A DNA stretch of 14,229 bases, taken from the NCBI GenBank assembly GCA_945283395.1, contig CALYQH010000008.1, positions 1 through 14,229 on the forward strand, given 5' to 3'. Each line of letters starts with the position of its first letter. Position 1 is the first letter of the stretch. Below the pieces are notes generated by a model that was given only the letters and a program-made list of their open reading frames with translations, had not been told where the DNA came from and made no database searches. The stretch comes from an uncultured Ventosimonas sp. Lineage in GTDB: Bacteria > Pseudomonadota > Gammaproteobacteria > Pseudomonadales > Pseudomonadaceae. Positions 3,711 through 13,190 of this stretch are shown piece after piece. The position numbers and the translations under genes are program-made.

Positions 3711-3747
3711 ACATTGATGAAATAATTTTATAGAATGACTATTAAGT

Positions 3748-5643
3748 GTGTTAACCCAAAATAAAAAGATTATTTTACTATTGTTATTAATATCATTGGT
3801 CTCGGTGGAACTTCTTAGCACTGCCTGGATAAGTGATGATGCAGCTATTATTCTACGGGTAATAGAAAATTTTATTCATGGCTATGGACCAAATTTTAAT
3901 GTTGGTGAACGTGTTCAGGCATATACCCACCCTCTTTGGTTTTTATTTCTTTCGTTTGTTGCATTATTTATTAATAATATTTTTATTGTTACTCTTATAG
4001 TTTCTATCTTAATGAGTCTATTTACGCTTATATTTTTAATAATAAAGATAGCGCGAATTTTTGGTTAGGTTTTTTATCAATTTTATTATTATCTTTGTCT
4101 AGGGCGTACGTTGATTTTTCAACATCAGGCTTAGAAAATGTTTTATCTCATTTTATAATATTAGTTGGGATATTTTGGGGAAATAGAGTTTTAAAAGATA
4201 CAAACTATAAGCACTTATTATATTTCTTTCTGTCCTGTAGTTTATTATATCTAAATAGGCCAGATCTAATTCTAATTTTCTTTCCATTATTTTGCCATGT
4301 CCTATTTAGTAATAGTAAAGTATTTCCACTAGTATTTAAGGCTTTATTATTAGCTGCATTGCCAGTCATTATTTGGACATTATTTGCCATGTATTATTAT
4401 GGTTTTCCTTTTCCTAATACAGCTTATTCTAAATTGGCGACTGGAATAGGATTGTCAGAGCGTATTTCACAGGGAGTAAATTATTTTATAGACTCTTATG
4501 AAAGAGATCCCATCACTCTAAGTTTGATTGTTATAGGAAGTATATTAGGCTTATGGCAATCAATATTAACCAGATATTTAACTGTGGGTGTCCTTTTCTA
4601 CTTATGTTATATCATAAGTGTAGGTGGCGATTTTATGTCAGGAAGATTTTTTACATCACCATTATTAGTTGCTGTTGCTATTATAGCATTATCTGATGTT
4701 TATAAAATAATTTATTATTTTATTCTTAGTTATGGACTATTGATAGGCATTGCTCGGGTTGATTACACTTTGTTAAGTAGTAGCGATTATAACGTTACTT
4801 TCTTGAATGAGTATGGAATTGCTGATGAACGGGGCTTCTAATTTCAACAAACTGCCTTGTTAAATTCGAATCAGGGGTTGCTTTCTTTAAACATCCCTTC
4901 TTGGAAATTTTCAGAGGAAGATAAAGATATCAGTATTAAATGTGGGCGTTTGGGTTTTTCAGGGTTATTAATTGGACCTAATCGTTATTTTATAGATAAT
5001 TGTGCGCTAGTTGACCCTTTATTGGCAAGGTTACCAGCAAAATATAATAAGCATTGGCGTATAGGGCATTTTTATCGGCAATTGCCGAATGGATACTTAG
5101 AAACAATAATGACTCAAAGCAACTCTATTACTGATCCTGATGTTAAAAAGTTCTACGATGCTATAGCCAGTATTACAAAAGGAGAATTGAATACGTTTAG
5201 TAGAATAAAGAATATTATTAGGGTAAATAGTGGAGCTATTTATATAAAAGATAAAGATAAGTATAGATATACTTCTATAACATATAGTCCTTTAATAATT
5301 GACTATGAATTATTAAATCATTCAGCTATAGATTCGGAAGAGTGGGATAAAAAAGGAAGTACAATTTTTCTGTAAGCTTTATTAATAAAGTTGCCTAAAA
5401 ATACAGAAATAATTTCTATGGATTTATCTTTAGCTAATTCCGATTATAGAATAGATTATATCTCAAAGGAGCGAGTGATTTTTTACAGCTAAAATTGCAG
5501 CTAAAATGAATAGCTATGGGTTAATACGTTATCATTTAATAGCTAAGACTTCTATAAAAAATGTCGATTCTATCCAGATTACTGCTGTGAATTCAGGAGA
5601 TTTTGAGTATTATTCGTTGGGGCATATCATCATTAATGAATAA
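3748..5643 (+). pseudogene. Broken GT-C arabinofuranosyltransferase (AftB/TfpW-like)
   Basis: When rejoined, this is one gene of about 630 codons, the length I recall for mycobacterial AftB. These multi-pass enzymes move D-Araf from a polyprenyl-phosphate donor to a target outside the membrane. Family signatures in order are SDDAAIILR and GERVQAYTHPLW (first loop), STSGLENVLSH, FPNTAYSKL, GGDFMSGRFF, NEYGIADERG, DPLLARLPA, WRIGHF and a terminal YSLGHIII. Four lesions are seen. (1) A frameshift near 4030-4040, by the T run at 4033-4037. (2) An in-frame TAA at 4839-4841, between ERGF and FQQTALLN, where Tyr is likely ancestral. (3) An in-frame TAA at 5373-5375. (4) A frameshift in the T6 run at 5479-5484, after which the frame continues to TAA at 5641-5643. 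Frameshifts could be sequencing errors, but two extra nonsense codons point to true decay. The GTG at 3748 is a weak start with no clear Shine-Dalgarno. Confidence 0.85.
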
Positions 5644-5646
5644 TTA

Positions 5647-6825
5647 TTAAAAAAATGAGACTAATAGTAAGCAAAAATAACCTAACTTAGGATAAGTGCA
5701 GCAGTGTGGGATAATCCAAGAGAAAATATATAACAAGAAAATAATGAAGAATAACATCGGATGCTTATAGCAAATTGGTCTTATATAGGCTTGTTGCATT
5801 TGTATTAAATAAAAAACTAGTAAAGTAAATAGGGTTATATAAGTACTTATCCAACGACCCCAATCATAACCTACTATAAATAGTGGAATGATGAAGATTA
5901 TTGAAATAATAACAAATTTTTTAATAGGTAAAGTTTTAGCATAAGTAACAAAAATAAAGGGAAAAAAAGCTAACAAACAGCAAATAGGATAATAAATTAA
6001 ATAATCCCCGTAGATAGCATTATATTTTGTATTGGCTATAGCAGCTGCCAAATTTTGACTAGTGGCATAAATTGCCCCATTACAAAAGTTATCCGATTTT
6101 TCAAAAGTTAAGCTTGAACAAATTATTTTCCAACTATGGTTATCGCCATGATAGAAATAACTTAGAATAAGAGCGACTATACTAAGTAAGCTAAATAAGA
6201 CTACAGCGGCTGCTACTATTTTTTTATCAATTAGATGTGTGTAATAGAGGGTAACAAATAGAAAAATAAAAAAAGGACAGTAAAAGATGATCATTTCATG
6301 GATGGGGGCAAATACAGCAAAAAAAAAGATCGCAACAGTCAAGTAATGATTAGCACAGATTTTTTGGGTTTTTAGAGGATGAATAAGCAGTAAAAGTATT
6401 GCGAAAATAGTTACTAACAATAGCTCTTTTCTGAAAGCTGCTCGATAAGTCCAGTAGCTAAATCCTATATAAAAAGCGGGAGAACATAGTAGCATTTTTT
6501 CAACAAATGAATGGCTAGTTTTAAGATATAAAAAAATGCTAAAAGTAATAAATAAGACCATTAAACTTGCTTGGACATAACTAGTTAAATTGATTAAATT
6601 AATATTTAACAGATTTGCCAACAAAGCTAGGATTTCTCCTGATAATCCTCTTCGAATGAAACCATTGCTGTAATTGATTAACCAATCTGCAGAAAGCCAA
6701 AAGTCACCTTTATCATTATTAATATTAGATACCAAATATATGATTTGATTGAGAGCAAAATATAAAAGTAATAACATAATAAGGTTACTAATAATATATA
6801 GTCTTTTAAAAATTAGTTTTTCCAT
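5647..6825 (-). CDS. Uncharacterised polytopic membrane protein, copy A
   Basis: The 392-aa product is very hydrophobic, with roughly ten predicted membrane spans. I do not recognise a named family. After the first span comes a polar segment, residues 40-66, with GDFWLSADW and INYSNGFIRRGL. Later come SPAFYIGFSYW with RKELLLVTIF, HEMIIF, YFHGD, FCNGAIYA and DWGRWIS (321-327). An Asp-containing motif in the first outer loop and scattered charged residues in other loops resemble GT-C glycosyltransferases or polysaccharide polymerases, but this is only architectural similarity. It is paralogous to copy B (11366-12544) over its full length. The gene converges on the GT-C pseudogene with 3 bases between stop codons and is divergent from the DPPR synthase gene. 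It has no clear Shine-Dalgarno and appears more AT-rich than the core genes. Confidence 0.85.
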   Translation of the reverse strand: MEKLIFKRLYIISNLIMLLLLYFALNQIIYLVSNINNDKGDFWLSADWLINYSNGFIRRGLSGEILALLANLLNINLINLTSYVQASLMVLFITFSIFLYLKTSHSFVEKMLLCSPAFYIGFSYWTYRAAFRKELLLVTIFAILLLLIHPLKTQKICANHYLTVAIFFFAVFAPIHEMIIFYCPFFIFLFVTLYYTHLIDKKIVAAAVVLFSLLSIVALILSYFYHGDNHSWKIICSSLTFEKSDNFCNGAIYATSQNLAAAIANTKYNAIYGDYLIYYPICCLLAFFPFIFVTYAKTLPIKKFVIISIIFIIPLFIVGYDWGRWISTYITLFTLLVFYLIQMQQAYIRPICYKHPMLFFIIFLLYIFSWIIPHCCTYPKLGYFCLLLVSFF

Positions 6826-6963
6826 AAAAATTTAATGTTAGTAATGAGTAAAGTTTTAGTTGAAAATTATGCAAAATATCGTAAGGTAAGGTAAAAATAA
6901 AGAAATAATTTTAGCGTATTGTTAAAATGATAAATTAATCATTGATGAATATGGAATATAATT
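6826..6963. promoter_or_regulatory. Divergent promoter region of the D-Araf operon
   Basis: These 138 bases separate two divergent genes and must hold promoters for both. For the plus strand the best candidate is an extended -10, TGTTAAAAT (6920-6928), 35 bases before the ATG at 6964; no good -35 is seen. Immediately after it lies the imperfect palindrome AATGATAAATTAATCATT (6926-6943). The TATAAT at 6957-6962 is too close to the ATG to serve this start. Confidence 0.4.
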
Positions 6964-8349
6964 ATGGCGGAGTTAATACCCGTTGTTGTTGAGCTTGATG
7001 GTGCGTTACTAAGTTCTTCGCTATCATGGGAGCATTGGCTATTTTCTATAAAACAACATGTTTTTACTATTCTCCAAAAAATATCAGCCGCGCCTCTACA
7101 AAAATCATCTTTTGATGTTTCCACGCTACCTTATGATGAGGCTGTTTTATCTATACTTAGAGAGGAACATGCTAAGGGTAGAAGTATTATCTTGCTAACT
7201 AGCAATAATTTTTCATTAGCAATGAAAATTGCAGAGTTTTTAAAATGTATCTCTGAAGTTAAGGATATAAGCCACCTTTCACAACAAGAGATAACAGCTA
7301 ATTTAAAACAAGAATTTGGTTATCATGGGTTTGATATTATTGTTCATAATGAAACCTCTATGATGTTATCTGAAATAGCTAATAAATCATTTCTCGTTAA
7401 ACCCTCTAACAAAGCTATTGTATATACCCAACATGGGAAGCATATTAAAACTATTAGCGAACCAAACAAAAGCCCAATGCAAGACTGGTTATATGAACTT
7501 AGATTACACCAATGGGTGAAAAACTTTCTCATCTTTATTCCTTTGTTAACTTCTCATCAAGTTAGTCTAACAACATTAGGCTATGCAATGATGGCTTTTT
7601 TGTTATTTGGTTGCTGTTCTTCAAGTGCTTATCTATTAAATGATTTACTTGATCTAGCAGCTGATAGAGTACATAAAACTAAACGAAATAGACCTTTTGC
7701 AGCAGGACGATTAGCTATTAGTACAGGGCTTATTACTTCCCCTACGCTATTATTAATAGCTATCATAGTGGCTAGCTTAGTTTTACCAACTAATTTCTTA
7801 GTTGTGTTATTAGTTTACTATGTTGTTACGCTAGCTTATTCTTTATTTTTAAAACGTTACATGGCGATAGATGTAGTTGTATTAGCTATATTATATACCC
7901 TAAGAATTGTGGCAGGCGGTGCTGCGCTAAGTATTGTATTAACCTCTTGGATATTAGCCTTTGCCATTTTTATTTTCTTAAGCTTAGCATTAGTTAAACG
8001 CTATATAGAGTTAAACGATGCACAACTGACAGGGGAAAATACTAAAGTGAAAGGGCGTGGCTATTATGCAAGTGATTTAAGCATGATAGCCGCATTAGGT
8101 GCAGCGGCAGGCTATTTATCAGTAATGGTATTAGCTCTTTATATTAATAGTCCACAAGTAGCTAAGCTATATAGTCATACAGAAATTATTTGGTTGGCTT
8201 GTCCTATTTTATTATTTTGGGTGACACGTCTTTGGTTTCTGGCGCACAGAGGAGAATTACATAGTGATCCAGTAGTTTTTGCCATTAAAGATAGGGTGAG
8301 CTTGTTGGCAGGTGGGCTCTTTATATTAGTTTTTTGGATAGCAATATGA
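6964..8349 (+). CDS. DPPR synthase (UbiA family) with degenerate HAD domain
   Basis: The C-terminal part (about 175-461) is a UbiA prenyltransferase like mycobacterial Rv3806c, which joins phosphoribose from PRPP to a polyprenyl phosphate, the committed step to lipid-linked D-arabinofuranose. It carries NDLLDLAADR at 226-235, then KTKRNRPFAAG, and LKRYMAIDVVVLAILYTLR at 296-314, with about eight or nine membrane spans. Residues 1 to about 165 align with the HAD phosphatase domain common in bacterial fusions of this type, but the catalytic sites are lost. Motif I reads ELDGAL at 10-15 (normally DxDGT). The motif IV GDSxADLP region reads HNETSMML at 128-135, and the usual lysine region is altered. 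The domain is probably a structural relic. This is the first gene of a tight four-gene operon and overlaps the next gene by ATGA. Confidence 0.92.
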   Translation: MAELIPVVVELDGALLSSSLSWEHWLFSIKQHVFTILQKISAAPLQKSSFDVSTLPYDEAVLSILREEHAKGRSIILLTSNNFSLAMKIAEFLKCISEVKDISHLSQQEITANLKQEFGYHGFDIIVHNETSMMLSEIANKSFLVKPSNKAIVYTQHGKHIKTISEPNKSPMQDWLYELRLHQWVKNFLIFIPLLTSHQVSLTTLGYAMMAFLLFGCCSSSAYLLNDLLDLAADRVHKTKRNRPFAAGRLAISTGLITSPTLLLIAIIVASLVLPTNFLVVLLVYYVVTLAYSLFLKRYMAIDVVVLAILYTLRIVAGGAALSIVLTSWILAFAIFIFLSLALVKRYIELNDAQLTGENTKVKGRGYYASDLSMIAALGAAAGYLSVMVLALYINSPQVAKLYSHTEIIWLACPILLFWVTRLWFLAHRGELHSDPVVFAIKDRVSLLAGGLFILVFWIAI

Positions 8350-9662
8350 ATCATTTAGTCGCATCATGGGGTAATTATCCCAACTTTTCTCAGACTGCTC
8401 ATACACTGAGTTGGCGTTGTGAGTTAGCAGAGCTTTATCAGCAGTCCACCGTATCTTTTGGTAGTACCTTGGCTTATGGTAATGGACGTAGTTATGGAGA
8501 TAGTTGCTTAGCACTGAGTGACCATGTCATAGCTATGCGAGGTTTAAATAGATTTATTAATGTTGATTGGCAACTAGGTATTATTAGAGCAGAGGCTGGC
8601 GTTACCTTAGCAGAAGTATTAGAGTTAATTATACCGCATGGCTGGTTTCTAGCCGTAACACCTGGTACGCAATTTATTACATTAGGTGGTGCAGTGGCCA
8701 ATGATGTGCATGGAAAGAATCATCATAGAAGGGGAACTTTTGGAAACCATGTATTACAGTTCGGTTTATTAAGGCAAAATGAGCCAGAGATTACTTGCTC
8801 CAAATTAGAAAATTTAGCCTTATTTCAGGCTACTATTGGCGGTTTAGGGCTGACTGGCATTATTACATGGGTTGAAATACAGCTTATTCCTATCAAAGCT
8901 AGTCAAATTGATAGTAAAGTAGTACGTTTTAATAATTTGGATGAGTTTTTTACGTTGTCAGCAGAGTTGGATTCTTTACATGAATATAGCGTAGCTTGGG
9001 TGGATTGCATAGCAACGGGTAATAAGACGGGACGTGGAGTTTTTATGGCTGGGGATTATGCAGAAGATGGCGAATTGGCTTACAGCCAACCTAAGAAGCT
9101 ACAAGCTCCTATAAAATTGCCTTGTTCTCTTGTTAATTCATTATCTTTAAAAGCATTTAATGCTATTTATTGGCGAAAACATCCTAAATCAATCAAGTCA
9201 GTACGTATTGATTATTATCCTTTCTTTTACCCACTAGATAATATTTTATATTGGAATAGGATATATGGCTACAAAGGATTCCAACAATACCAATGTGTTA
9301 TTCCTAAAAGAGTAAGCGAACAAGCGATTAGAGCGCTACTCAGTACTATTGCACAACAAGGAATAGGTTCTTTTTTAGCGGTCTTAAAATGTTGTGGTGC
9401 TATTTCATCGCCAGGTTTAATGAGTTTTCCTATGGAAGGTACTACCTTAGCATTGGACTTTCCACAAAGTAAGGCGTTGGCTAAGGTTTTATTTCCTCGT
9501 TTAGACGCTATCGTACGAGAAGCGGGTGGTAGATTATATGCTGCTAAAGATGCGCATATGCAAGCTGATGATTTTAAGCAAGCCTATCCAGCATGGGAGC
9601 AATTAGAGGCATTGCGCGATAGAGGATTAAATTCACACTTTTGGAAAAGGGTAACGTCATGA
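8346..9662 (+). CDS. DprE1-like decaprenylphosphoryl-ribose 2'-oxidase
   Basis: This FAD enzyme oxidises the 2'-OH of polyprenyl-phosphoryl-ribose to the keto intermediate, the first half of epimerisation to D-arabinose. The FAD domain shows YGNGRSYGDS (44-53), VTPGTQFITLGGAV, then DVHGKNHH with His at 122, and FGNHV. Near the C-terminus are TLALDFP and GGRLYAAKD, with Lys 401 matching the catalytic Lys418 of M. tuberculosis DprE1. The residue equivalent to Cys387, the covalent benzothiazinone target, is Ala369. I chose the ATG at 8346 because it overlaps the upstream stop as ATGA; an in-frame TTG lies four codons earlier. The product is 438 aa, near the usual size, and its gene is coupled to the DprE2-like gene by another ATGA overlap. 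No membrane anchor or signal peptide is seen. Confidence 0.93.
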   Translation: MNHLVASWGNYPNFSQTAHTLSWRCELAELYQQSTVSFGSTLAYGNGRSYGDSCLALSDHVIAMRGLNRFINVDWQLGIIRAEAGVTLAEVLELIIPHGWFLAVTPGTQFITLGGAVANDVHGKNHHRRGTFGNHVLQFGLLRQNEPEITCSKLENLALFQATIGGLGLTGIITWVEIQLIPIKASQIDSKVVRFNNLDEFFTLSAELDSLHEYSVAWVDCIATGNKTGRGVFMAGDYAEDGELAYSQPKKLQAPIKLPCSLVNSLSLKAFNAIYWRKHPKSIKSVRIDYYPFFYPLDNILYWNRIYGYKGFQQYQCVIPKRVSEQAIRALLSTIAQQGIGSFLAVLKCCGAISSPGLMSFPMEGTTLALDFPQSKALAKVLFPRLDAIVREAGGRLYAAKDAHMQADDFKQAYPAWEQLEALRDRGLNSHFWKRVTS

Positions 9663-10405
9663 AGCGTTTTTTAATTATAGGAGCTACTTCTGCTATTGCA
9701 ATAGCTACTGCACGCTTGTGGTTAAAACAAAATAAGCAATCAGAATTTTTTCTAGTTGCTCGTAATGAGGAAAAATTAACACAAACTAAAATGGATTTAG
9801 AGACGAGAGGAGCACCAAAAGTAATTACCTATACAATGGATGTTAATAATATGGCACAACATGAAATTATGCTTGAACAGTGCGTTAATTCACTTAAGCA
9901 AATTGATATAGTACTAATAGCACATGGTACTCTACCTGATCAACAATTGTGTGAACAAAACGTTGATGTTACTTTAAAGGAGTTTGAAACAAATGGTCTG
10001 TCTGTTATTGTATTGTTAATAGTGCTAGCCAATCTGATGAAGCAGCAGCACTTTGGGCAGATAGCTGTAATTTCTTCGGTTGCAGCTGATAGAGGGCGAC
10101 CTTCAAATTATTTGTATGGGGCAGCGAAAGCGGCAGTTACTACTTTTTGTGAGGGGCTACGAGCACGCCTCTATAAACATCAGGTAGGACTGACAATCAT
10201 TAAGCCTGGCTTTGTAGATACTCCTATGACCCAAGGTTTACCATTGCCAAAGTTAATGGTAGTTAGACCAGAAAAAATAGCCAATTATATAGTAAAAGGA
10301 GTTAAGGCCAATAAATCAGTTATTTATGCACCTTGGTTTTGGTTCTTCATCATGTATATTATTCGGCATATTCCGCAATGGCTTTTTAAGAGAATGAAAC
10401 TGTGA
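9659..10405 (+). CDS. DprE2-like decaprenylphosphoryl-2-keto-ribose reductase (SDR)
   Basis: This is a short-chain dehydrogenase that reduces the keto intermediate from DprE1 with NADH or NADPH to polyprenyl-phosphoryl-D-arabinofuranose. The nucleotide loop is GATSAIA (8-14), an atypical glycine motif; mycobacterial DprE2 is also atypical here. The catalytic set is Ser139/Ser140 with Tyr153 and Lys157 (YGAAK). The C-terminal IYAPWFWFFIMYIIRHIPQW closely follows the WAP...RHIPR end I recall from mycobacterial DprE2 and may pack on the membrane. The ATG at 9659 is preferred: it has AAGGG upstream and overlaps the DprE1 stop by ATGA. Length is 248 aa, normal for the family. The final codons overlap the next gene's GTG (GTGA). 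Confidence 0.93.
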   Translation: MKRFLIIGATSAIAIATARLWLKQNKQSEFFLVARNEEKLTQTKMDLETRGAPKVITYTMDVNNMAQHEIMLEQCVNSLKQIDIVLIAHGTLPDQQLCEQNVDVTLKEFETNGLSVIVLLIVLANLMKQQHFGQIAVISSVAADRGRPSNYLYGAAKAAVTTFCEGLRARLYKHQVGLTIIKPGFVDTPMTQGLPLPKLMVVRPEKIANYIVKGVKANKSVIYAPWFWFFIMYIIRHIPQWLFKRMKL

Positions 10406-11355
10406 CAGAGCCTACTAAGGTTACTGGTAGGCGTTATAGAGCCGTTATTATTTCTATTATTATAGCAGCCTTAGGTTATACAGCATTTTCATTGTGGGCA
10501 GGTTGGGAAGAGGTAAGTAAAGCATTTGTTGAGGTAGGGATTACAGGTATTGTAATAGTTGTAGTATTAGTTCTAATCAATTATCTATTACGCTTTATTC
10601 GCTGGCAAAAATATCTTGCTATCTTCGGTCACAAGTTACCTTTCTGGGATCATTTGCGCATCTATTTGGCAGGGTTCGCTTTAACGACTACTCCAGGCAA
10701 AGCAGGAGAGGCATTACGGAGTTTTTTATTAGAGCCTTATGGGGTGCCCTTTAAACATAGTTTGGCGGCTTTCTTAAGTGAGCGGTTAGCTGATTTGATA
10801 GCCATTCTTTTATTATCCTTTATTGGATTATCCCAATATCCCGCTGCTCGCCCTCTTATAATAGTGAGTGTTTTTCTAATTATAATAGCCTTGTTGGCGC
10901 TTTCTAATAGCAAATTGCTTAATAAGCTATTGGCTAAATTAGCGAAGCGAAGAGGCAAATTTGTAAATTTATTAAGCCAGCTATGTCATATTCTACTCGA
11001 AGCTCAGCAATGCCATAAGTTAAATGTAATAGTTACAGCTACTATTTTGAGTATATTAGCTTGGGGGGCAGAAGCTGTTGCCTTCTATTTTATATTACAA
11101 TGGATGGGAGCAGAGGTTTCACTAAGTTTTGCTATTTTTATTTATGCTTTGTCTATGTTAGCTGGAGCTCTTAGTTTTATGCCAGGAGGATTGGGAGGAG
11201 CGGAAGCAGTCATGATAGCATTATTAATATTAAAAGGCATGACAAGTGCTGAGGCAGTTGCCGCCACATTATTAATACGTTTTGCTACATTATGGTTTGC
11301 AGTAGGTTTAGGTATTAGTGTGTTACTTATAAAAATAACTAAGCCAAATGGTTAG
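10402..11355 (+). CDS. LPG_synthase_TM/UPF0104 membrane protein, possible flippase
   Basis: This 317-aa polytopic protein belongs to the family of the membrane part of lysylphosphatidylglycerol synthase (PF03706). It has YLLRFIRWQKYL (61-72), TTTPGKAGE (95-103), SERLADLIA, and MPGGLGGAEAVM around 260-271, with about eight spans. Soluble synthase domains are absent, so it does not make lysyl-lipid. Family members often lie in glycan gene clusters, and some are proposed to translocate lipid-linked sugars. In this operon, moving the D-Araf lipid from the cytoplasmic to the periplasmic face is the natural guess. The GTG start overlaps the upstream stop codon (GTGA), so translation is coupled. The stop lies 10 bases from the convergent stop of copy B, with no terminator hairpin between them. 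Confidence 0.9.
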   Translation: MTEPTKVTGRRYRAVIISIIIAALGYTAFSLWAGWEEVSKAFVEVGITGIVIVVVLVLINYLLRFIRWQKYLAIFGHKLPFWDHLRIYLAGFALTTTPGKAGEALRSFLLEPYGVPFKHSLAAFLSERLADLIAILLLSFIGLSQYPAARPLIIVSVFLIIIALLALSNSKLLNKLLAKLAKRRGKFVNLLSQLCHILLEAQQCHKLNVIVTATILSILAWGAEAVAFYFILQWMGAEVSLSFAIFIYALSMLAGALSFMPGGLGGAEAVMIALLILKGMTSAEAVAATLLIRFATLWFAVGLGISVLLIKITKPNG

Positions 11356-11365
11356 CTAGTGATTT

Positions 11366-12544
11366 TCAAAGTAGTGCAGAGACTTTTATGATTAAGCTAC
11401 TTTTCGGAAATGCATAAATACAACAAAAAGGAACGACCCACGTAAAAGTATAAATTACAAATAAACAAGCCGAAAAGATAGTATGTTGTTGAAAAAAAGG
11501 CTTTATTCGTGCCTGTTTGGTATGTAATAAGAAAAAAGTAATGAGTGAAAATATAGTAGTATAGGTTGATATCCAACGTCCCCAATCTACAGCGATAACA
11601 AATAAAGGTAATAAGCAAATAAAAGAAACTAATAAACCATATTTGACTTTCAGCTCTTTATTATAAGTTATCATAGTAAAAGGTAAGAAAGCCAATATAA
11701 GTAACAAAGGATAGGAAACCAAATAGCTAGTATTTTTTATGTAGAAGTTTATGCCTTCAATTGCTGCGTTAAGATCTTTGCCTAGCGCATTAATAGCTCC
11801 ATTACAGAAAACACTGATGGTATAAGGAGATACACTTTTACAAATAGCCGCACTACTTGCTGGATCACCATGAAACAAGTAACTTAGTAAAAATAATATA
11901 ATGTTTATTAAGCAAATAGTGATGCAAATAAAACAAACTGATTTTAGACTAATTAATTTATTGGTATAAAGAATAAAGAAAAAAAATAGTAACAGTGGTG
12001 AAAAGAAAATTATCATCTCATGGGTCAAACCAAAAAGGATGTAAAGTAACAGGGAGAAGGTTACGTAATAATTGTCTTGCAGTTTGTTTTTAAATAGTAA
12101 TTTAATCACTACTAATAAGGCGAAAATAGTCACTAATATTAATTCTTTTCTAAATCCACCTCGAGGAGTCCAATAACAAAAGCCTATATAGAAAGCTGGC
12201 GAACAGAAAATAGCTTTTTCTACAAAGGTTTTTGTGGTTTTGAAATATAGAATAAGAGATAAAATGACAAATAAAATTATTAGGAGTAATTGTAATTTAA
12301 TGGTTACCTTAATTAGATCAAGATTCAAAAACTGACAAATTTTCAGTAAAATCTCACCCAATAAACCCCGGCGAATGAAACCATTGCTATAGTTTATTAC
12401 CCAGTCGGCAGTAAGCCAAAAATCTCCTTTCGTACTGAGCGCATCCGCAGCCAGATAAAAAGCTTGATCCACGGTTAAGTAACAAAGAATTATAATAATT
12501 AAACTGCCAATAAAGTTTAGTCTGGAAGATATATAAGTATTCAT
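11366..12544 (-). CDS. Uncharacterised polytopic membrane protein, copy B
   Basis: This is a paralogue of copy A. Both have 392 residues once the ATG at 12544 is used. A TTG eleven codons upstream also keeps the frame open, but the ATG product aligns with copy A from the first residue without gaps (QxxYL at 27-31 in both). Shared blocks include KGDFWLTADW, INYSNGFIRRGLLGEIL, CSPAFYIGFCYWTPR, FRKELILVTIFALL, HEMIIFFSP, LFHGD, FCNGAINA and DWGRWISTY. No signal peptide beyond the first span and no named family is recognised. Architecture again suggests a GT-C-like or polymerase-like enzyme of envelope glycans. It converges on the flippase-like gene (10 bases apart), so it is not part of that operon. 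Divergence between the copies is clear, so the duplication is old or the copies came in separately. Confidence 0.85.
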   Translation of the reverse strand: MNTYISSRLNFIGSLIIIILCYLTVDQAFYLAADALSTKGDFWLTADWVINYSNGFIRRGLLGEILLKICQFLNLDLIKVTIKLQLLLIILFVILSLILYFKTTKTFVEKAIFCSPAFYIGFCYWTPRGGFRKELILVTIFALLVVIKLLFKNKLQDNYYVTFSLLLYILFGLTHEMIIFFSPLLLFFFFILYTNKLISLKSVCFICITICLINIILFLLSYLFHGDPASSAAICKSVSPYTISVFCNGAINALGKDLNAAIEGINFYIKNTSYLVSYPLLLILAFLPFTMITYNKELKVKYGLLVSFICLLPLFVIAVDWGRWISTYTTIFSLITFFLLHTKQARIKPFFQQHTIFSACLFVIYTFTWVVPFCCIYAFPKSSLIIKVSALL

Positions 12545-12683
12545 TAATAAACAAAAAAAAATGGCTATAACTGCCAAGTAGTATAACTAGTAATGGTTAA
12601 TTAAACACATTGTTTCGATATTACAAACCGAAAATATTATTATTAGACTAGTTAAGTTAGATCAAATTAAACTAATATAAAAC

Positions 12684-12716
12684 TTGTATTATGCAATAAT
12701 GATAATTATTATCATT
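12684..12716 (+). promoter_or_regulatory. Fur box overlapping the promoter of the small gene
   Basis: AATGATAATTATTATCATT (12698-12716) is a perfect 9-1-9 palindrome and fits the Fur consensus core TGATAATnATTATCA exactly. It overlaps a candidate promoter: TTGTAT (12684-12689), 17 bp, then TATTAT (12707-12712), a 5-of-6 match to the -10. Iron-loaded Fur bound here would block RNA polymerase, so the gene downstream should be induced when iron is scarce. Confidence 0.85.
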
Positions 12717-12745
12717 TAATATTTAATAATTAAGGAGACTTTGCG

Positions 12746-12958
12746 ATGACTTACTTAATCGATGCTTGGTTAGAATGTGCACATCCCAAATTAAGAGTCT
12801 TAAATAAAGCAACTGGCGAAGTTTGTTTAGAGTTATCTGAGAATCAGTTGGCTAGATTACAGGAGCAAGGGCTATTAGATGTTAATAGATTATATTCAGT
12901 TGATCCTTTATTAATACAAGAAATATCACATGAGTTATTAGAGGTAATAGCTTGTTAG
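12746..12958 (+). CDS. Small Fur-regulated conserved protein
   Basis: This encodes a soluble-looking 70-aa protein starting MTYLIDAWLECAHPKLRVLN, with no membrane span or signal peptide. It has two cysteines, at 11 and 28, plus a terminal one. The central part (GEVCLELSENQLARLQEQG) suggests a short helical protein. A strong ribosome site, AGGAG at 12733-12737, and a Fur box over its promoter support a real, iron-repressed gene. From memory, it resembles the small iron-starvation gene that follows ispB in Pseudomonas (PA4570-like); I could not verify this. If correct, the accessory block at 3748-12544 sits between ispB and its former neighbour. Function unknown. Confidence 0.85.
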   Translation: MTYLIDAWLECAHPKLRVLNKATGEVCLELSENQLARLQEQGLLDVNRLYSVDPLLIQEISHELLEVIAC

Positions 12959-13025
12959 ACTGTGCGTTAATAAAGTTGTAACAAATTATTGCATTTGGAA
13001 AAAGATTGATTTCCATAGCTTAGTT

Positions 13026-13056
13026 TATGCCTTGCTTTAACAAGAGCATAATTTTC
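13026..13056 (+). terminator. Candidate terminator after the Fur-regulated gene
   Basis: TATGCCTTG (13026-13034) pairs with CAAG-A-GCATA (13041-13050), forming nine pairs with one bulged A and a 6-nt loop. A short ATTTTC tract follows. It is about 70 bases beyond the stop codon and before the rpsJ promoter. The T tract is short, so efficiency is uncertain. Confidence 0.45.
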
Positions 13057-13101
13057 TGGGCAGCACAATATAAATATGGGATTTTGTATTGTTATTATAG
13101 A

Positions 13102-13130
13102 TTGACATATAGGCTAACTCGCCTTAGAAT
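13102..13130 (+). promoter_or_regulatory. Strong sigma-70 promoter of the S10 operon
   Basis: A perfect -35 TTGACA (13102-13107) and a -10 TAGAAT (13125-13130) are separated by exactly 17 bp. The expected transcription start is near 13137, giving a leader of only about 54 nt before rpsJ. The strength fits a ribosomal protein operon. Confidence 0.85.
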
Positions 13131-13138
13131 TGCGCCTC

Positions 13139-13169
13139 TTTTCGATAGGCAAAATCTGTCTGTCGAGAG
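13139..13169 (+). promoter_or_regulatory. Hairpin at the 5' end of the rpsJ leader
   Basis: TTTTCGATAG (13139-13148) can pair with CTGTCGAGAG (13160-13169) through ten pairs, including G-U, around an 11-nt loop. It sits at the predicted 5' end of the transcript. It could protect the mRNA or serve in autoregulation. It is much smaller than the E. coli L4-binding S10 leader and has no following T run, so it is not an attenuator of that kind. Confidence 0.4.
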
Positions 13170-13190
13170 TTATTAGAGTCTGAGGTCAAC

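Follow-up and report, generated by a model that had tools for sequence, protein, structure and literature searches.

The window analysed here is a stretch of 14,229 nucleotides from an uncultured Ventosimonas sp. (contig CALYQH010000008.1), in which two paralogous multi-pass membrane proteins of 392 residues, copy A (5647..6825, minus strand) and copy B (11366..12544, minus strand), stand on either side of genes for the supply of lipid-linked D-arabinofuranose (D-Araf). We think it reasonably probable that A and B are inner-membrane glycosyltransferases of the GT-C(A) type, which pass D-Araf from polyprenyl phosphate to a surface glycan or glycoprotein. This reading was built on computed evidence: the resemblance of the predicted fold to GT-C proteins, the conserved residues of the family, its recurrent linkage to D-Araf genes, and the accessory island that holds both copies.

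Sequence Family and Predicted Fold

The open reading frames (ORFs) of A and B are uninterrupted. A preliminary description of the window, made from its letters, had proposed that they are paralogous, and this is borne out by 174 identities over 382 residues (46%, E 1e-105), far beyond chance. The four motifs that it named were found in both copies, both lie on the strand opposite to the plus-strand pathway genes, and the gaps between stop codons are as short as described: 3 bases (5644-5646) separate A from the plus-strand frame ending at 5643, and 10 bases (11356-11365) separate B from the gene ending at 11355. The equal length holds when B is read from ATG 12544, but the first start of its frame is a TTG at 12577, which gives 403 residues; in any case the equality means little, because the four nearest database entries likewise have 392, 409, 392, and 392 residues.

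The lack of a named family held for the local libraries: copy A had no Pfam or NCBIfam match at E ≤ 1, and copy B had no NCBIfam match at that threshold and one Pfam row at E 0.11, below its cut-off. The group is not wholly unrecognised, though. A search of 5.8 billion proteins, in which 8000 candidates were scored with a cut-off of E ≤ 0.001, gave 154 homologues of A, and the precomputed Pfam label PF27463 stands on 79 of the 120 that were listed, including the 99% identical P0001. PF27463 is a newer Pfam family, outside the local Pfam copy and known here only as the precomputed label of these homologues; no publication on it was found in the open-licence literature.

The family alignment has 86 rows. 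Its first-loop motif is D/E47-W-x-I-N-Y-x-x-G-F-I/V-R-R-G-L-x-G, followed by R-K-E at 132-134, H-E at 176-177, a Cys pair at 236 and 248, and D-W-G-R-W at 321-325. D321 and R324 are invariant over the 86 rows, position 47 is acidic in every row (75 D, 11 E), and the majority of the remaining motif columns vary in some rows. Both A and B carry all of these motifs. The family copy at locus L151 (genome G553) is interrupted, and no family ORF was present at L035 and L131 in the ORF set used. Two copies also exist in a second genome, G214, where they lie about 29 kb apart (L126 and L127), one at a DprE1 operon and the other away from it.

The AlphaFold models of A and B are confident (pLDDT 94), and in structural alignment GT-C-type proteins rank top for both, AftB and AftD among them. 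The partners in the long alignments, of about 265-325 residues, are lipid-monophosphate GT-C and OST/PMT-type proteins. In PMC12041299, the GT-C(A) class is described by a core of seven transmembrane (TM) helices with juxtamembrane helices between TM1 and TM2, and this arrangement is found in the predicted structure. A further mark of the class is an Asp, D62 in AftB, that sits at the tip of juxtamembrane helix 1 and is essential; residue 47, which the model places in a short helix (44-48) next to the first long one, may be its counterpart. A sequence search of the PDB with the family profile returned a single match, at E 1. Structure prediction was thus compared with GT-C folds for both copies, as the preliminary description had advised, and its proposal of a GT-C-like group was left standing: the models suggest that A and B are GT-C-like by predicted fold.

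Linkage to D-Arabinofuranose Genes

A scan of contigs from named genomes gave 80 family loci from several phyla, to which further loci from other genomes were added. Proteins at no more than 4 kb from a family gene were compared all against all at 61 loci, the window being counted once. This count and the tree described below omit 28 locus identifiers, mostly from Chryseobacterium and further members of the Bacteroidota. The most recurrent neighbors were DprE1 (12 loci), the UbiA-type phosphoribosyltransferase (12 loci, weak at L065), and DprE2 (11 loci), followed by a fourth cluster that is present at 10 loci. Five loci have the family gene and pathway genes in same-strand, near-abutting runs. 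The order at L128 is DprE1, DprE2, HAD, family gene, UbiA, flippase, and then a PMT_2-type protein, and the first six of these recur in the same order at L081. The run at L013 is UbiA, GtrA-like, DprE1, DprE2, family gene, HAD; at L018 it is family gene, HAD-UbiA, GtrA-like, DprE1, DprE2; and at L006 it is GtrA-like, DprE1, DprE2, family gene. Elsewhere the arrangement resembles that of copy B, the family gene converging tail-to-tail on DprE2 (L010, L019, L034, L036, and L127) or on an unlabelled ORF that precedes DprE1 (L044). Homologues therefore do recur beside DprE1, DprE2, and UbiA genes, and the neighborhoods gave no refutation of the link that the preliminary description had drawn.

On a family tree of 75 rows, from which L054, family ORFs with E > 1e-10, and the window duplicate L117 were also omitted, the DprE1-linked label needs at least 9 changes, and equally low numbers came up in 15 of 500 shuffles. 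The linkage has therefore been gained or kept many times, and a single clade of DprE1-linked members was rejected. Loci L010, L019, L034, and L036 form one clade.

Co-occurrence was also counted at the level of genomes. The family (E ≤ 0.001) was found in 9 and DprE1 (E ≤ 1e-60) in 54 of the 398 genomes of a phylum sample; with the window's own genome set aside, DprE1 was present in 5 of 8 family-positive genomes versus 48 of 389 others (Fisher p 0.0015). A class sample of 369 genomes gave 4 of 7 versus 63 of 361 (p 0.023), with four of its seven family matches weak (E 3e-5 to 9e-4) and some genomes common to the phylum sample. Among 75 relatives, the family was found only in the own genome and in G029, and both are DprE1-positive versus 14 of the 73 others. 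DprE1 was present at E ≤ 1e-60 in 34 of 47 family-positive genomes that were chosen for this test, which covers 47 of 81 loci (L004 plus 46 from the scan that gave 80); the corresponding test for the UbiA-type phosphoribosyltransferase, PPPRS, covers 29 genomes.

Proposed Pathway and Mechanism

The plus-strand genes between A and B, all with uninterrupted frames, would make the donor. The gene at 6964..8349 encodes a HAD-UbiA fusion (NF006088, 501 bits, above cut-off), that is, a PPPRS with an N-terminal phosphatase-like domain in which the nucleophile is altered. Its UbiA part has the NDxxDxxxD motif and the later R and E of a PPPRS, and scores 158.9 bits against the decaprenyl-phosphate phosphoribosyltransferase model NF008978, the cut-off of 207 not being reached. 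It is followed by a DprE1-like oxidase of polyprenyl-phosphate ribose to the 2-keto form (8334..9662; NF053785, E 1.1e-100, 338 bits, curated cut-off 500 not reached) and a DprE2-like reductase (9641..10405; NF053786, E 3.6e-51, below cut-off, the top match being the SDR model NF005489, above cut-off). The two-protein epimerase is thus present, though each component falls below the cut-off of its curated model. The last gene (10402..11355) has library matches to PF03706/TIGR00374; it encodes a flippase-like membrane protein, a candidate flippase for lipid-linked pentofuranose. A and the HAD-UbiA gene run in opposite directions from starts that are 138 bp apart, and the stretch that separates them (6826..6963) may be a shared control region.

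What A and B catalyse, from which donor, to which acceptor, in the periplasm and with which residues is inferred here, and all of the chemistry is drawn from named families: DPPRS, DprE1/DprE2, AftB, and the three-component systems of PMC11127046. The HAD-UbiA protein would join phosphoribosyl pyrophosphate and polyprenyl phosphate into polyprenyl-phosphate ribofuranose 5-phosphate, a phosphatase would take off the 5-phosphate, and DprE1/DprE2 would invert C2 to give polyprenyl-phosphate D-arabinofuranose. This would be turned to the periplasmic face by the PF03706 protein or another flippase. A and B would then bind the D-Araf through the acidic D47, on the short helix after TM1, and the basic R58, R59, R132, K133, and R324, and would hand it to a surface glycan or glycoprotein. 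As to why two copies have been kept, our guess is that they serve two acceptor positions, for example the first residue and its extension.

As an observation on the flippase step, the PF03706-type protein occurs in the window and at L010, L019, L081, L116, and L128, and a GtrA-like protein at L006, L013, L018, and L127. The two never appear together in the stretches seen, among which those of L006 and L013 are short, and both are missing from the stretches of L034 and L036. An alternative flippase for the D-Araf lipid may be found in the PF03706 proteins.

The Accessory Island

A, B, and the D-Araf-lipid pathway make up one accessory island, at 3711..13190 between ispB and rpsJ. In three congeners (L139, L140, and L141; two single-contig assemblies and one of two contigs, each listed as 100% complete), the same interval measures only 339, 690, and 870 bases, with a longest extra ORF of 74 residues in the largest gap, so that the block is accessory, either acquired here or deleted in the congeners. 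The three congener genomes showed no family member and no DprE1. The island's ORFs of at least 100 residues are a broken AftB-like gene, A, the pathway genes, the flippase-like gene, and B, and Pfam and NCBIfam scans of them recognised no other sugar pathway, no pilin, and no polysaccharide-assembly gene. The island lies beside ribosomal protein genes.

The G+C content is 28.7% in A, 30.5% in B, and 30.1% in the broken AftB-like gene, and 34.7-38.8% in the pathway genes. A groups with P0002 on the tree, and B with P0003 (98% identical) and P0004, so the duplication is older than those splits. For P0004 and for the 81% identical DprE1 P0122 the length given for the longest contig is 9357 bases in both cases, and they probably lie on one contig. 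Carriage by a phage or plasmid was considered and rejected, the UbiA protein having no match in the phage collection and copy A none in the plasmid collection.

Weighing the Readings

Several observations weigh against D-Araf transfer by A and B. Foldseek alone gave no significant match for the models, and the structural match list of B also holds two GPI-transamidase rows and FtsW/RodA matches. DprE1 lies inside the fetched stretch at only 9 of 80 loci; at L150 and L151 the family gene and DprE1 are on different contigs of DprE1-positive genomes; and neither DprE1 nor PPPRS was found in G397 and G492, both listed as 100% complete. A strict tie between the family and DprE1 was therefore rejected, several partial Pelagibacter single-cell genomes, G397, G492, and others having no DprE1 found, and because of the 9 of 80 the co-occurrence is an enrichment, not a rule. 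The family members of G397 and G492 (L132 and L134) are very divergent, and the genomes are large.

The gene on which A converges calls for a correction. The preliminary description took the standard arabinosyltransferase to be broken. That is right for the island copy, an AftB-like gene at 3748..5643 on the plus strand that is in pieces (3748-4068, 4095-4841, 4857-5375, and a last stretch to 5643), two of which match NF041481 separately and below its curated cut-off. Yet an intact AftB-like ORF of 636 residues, with an NF041481 match also below cut-off, was found outside the island on contig C31 of the same genome (L138:1219-3129), and three of the broken pieces match it with 48-60% identity. 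A and B are therefore not transferases by default, and the idea that they are the sole remaining ones was rejected. The C31 ORF is flanked, by eye, by an SDR-like ORF and a leuA-looking ORF. Finally, the island's HAD domain has E at the nucleophile position and has lost a later conserved Asp, both of which are D in 8 of 8 relatives (three of them near-copies), so that the island protein lacks the catalytic Asp of the PRP/HAD phosphatase in a three-component system. Judged by its residues, the domain looks degenerate; a different phosphatase may do its work, or the pathway may be in decay. In PMC11127046, a D18A mutant of the Citrobacter enzyme, at the corresponding residue, still yielded some product.

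If the island as a whole is decaying in this organism, A and B may now do little or nothing here, irrespective of the family's role in other bacteria; the broken AftB-like gene, the altered HAD domain, and the congeners devoid of the island agree with this. We consider it quite unlikely, since both copies have unbroken frames and retain the near-invariant family residues despite their identity of only 46%, and the UbiA, DprE1, DprE2, and flippase frames are likewise intact, with the active-site residues of UbiA kept. Somewhat less unlikely, although still an outside chance, is that A and B are GT-C enzymes whose donor is a different lipid-monophosphate sugar (ribofuranose, xylofuranose, or a hexose) and that the neighborhood reflects a surface-glycan island and not a shared donor. 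The members in G397 and G492 favor it, and the GT136 enzyme that has been characterised is not confined to a single pentofuranose (PMC11127046). At L020 a UbiA-HAD gene adjoins the family gene with no DprE1 in the stretch, a support weakened by the DprE1 that genome G089 has elsewhere. On the other hand, DprE1 and DprE2 themselves, besides UbiA, are among the top recurrent neighbors, and the island's ORFs of 100 residues or more revealed no sugar pathway besides that for D-Araf. For the family as a whole, a Pfam tally of 59 neighbors at unlinked loci brought out no partner that dominates (EpsG 3 of 59), and the unlinked members together with G397 and G492 make it probable that the donors of the family include more than one lipid-linked sugar.

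A role for A and B as Wzy-, EpsG-, or WaaL-type polymerases or ligases, joining diphospholipid-linked oligosaccharides of which some contain D-Araf, is very improbable. EpsG (PF14897) and Wzy_C (PF04932) are absent among the 6 families matched by any of the 86 members at E ≤ 0.01, on which ground membership in Wzy/EpsG was rejected, and the long structural alignments point to the lipid-monophosphate GT-C and OST/PMT-type proteins named above. No Wzy or WaaL chain is among the 50 structural-match rows listed for each model, which excludes nothing.

D-Araf transfer by A and B thus remains the reading that we prefer. The preliminary description had cast them as candidate users of lipid-linked D-Araf; the GT-C-like predicted fold and the recurrent pathway neighbors favor that candidacy, whereas transfer and donor enter it only by way of the proposed chemistry. 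A bolder extension, which we put forward tentatively and believe rather doubtful, is that the family is a widespread GT-C and a main D-arabinofuranosyltransferase of many Gram-negative bacteria, with A and B as a primer-extender pair that makes D-arabinan on a surface glycan or protein, the counterpart of mycobacterial AftA/Emb/AftB.

Significance and Comparison with Known Systems

D-Arabinofuranose is chiefly familiar as a component of the cell wall of mycobacteria, in which the pathway for it (DprE1, Emb) is a target of drugs. We know of no final transferase or glycan for most of the DprE1-type genomes of the phylum. With compact members of about 390 residues, a predicted fold like that of GT-C proteins, and genes inside several DprE1 operons, the family is a concrete and testable candidate for the last D-Araf step. 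It could also serve as a marker for D-Araf glycans in uncultured bacteria and as a simple model of arabinosyltransferase chemistry, free of the large extra domains of Emb or AftD.

AftB, a GT89 enzyme (NF041481), is the terminal beta-1,2-D-arabinofuranosyltransferase of mycobacteria. A and B share only 10-11% identity with AftB in structural alignment and, having no NCBIfam match at E ≤ 1, do not match NF041481. AftB also has a periplasmic cap domain, according to PMC12041299, for which the 392 residues of A and B leave little room.

There is a likeness in gene content to the GT136 protein of Citrobacter youngae (ORF12) and the three-component pentofuranose systems, as set out in PMC11127046: there, as in the island, one locus brings together a UbiA-type PPPRS with HAD, the step of epimerisation, a flippase candidate, and a protein of the GT-C type. 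ORF12 is larger than A and B and has a carbohydrate-binding domain at 503-652, and the flippase of the Citrobacter system is a MATE protein, whereas the candidate in the island is PF03706-type. TfpW, from Pseudomonas paraeruginosa/group IV P. aeruginosa, is a GT-C that puts alpha-1,5-D-Araf on type IV pilins and is fed by the same kind of D-Araf supply pathway (PMC12369383 and PMC11841053). The DprE1 of the window is closest, among named entries, to those of Pseudomonas and relatives. TfpW is encoded with pilA, in contrast with the island, which has no recognised pilin among its ORFs of at least 100 residues.

No report linking the A/B family to a lipid-linked D-Araf pathway was found in the open-licence literature, and the main text of PMC10920833 has no word beginning with 'arabin'. 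Lipid-linked pentofuranose transfer by GT-C enzymes is already known, and the pathway type is that of the GT136 system (PMC11127046); what is new is a family, with no name that we could find, that recurs in D-Araf operons.

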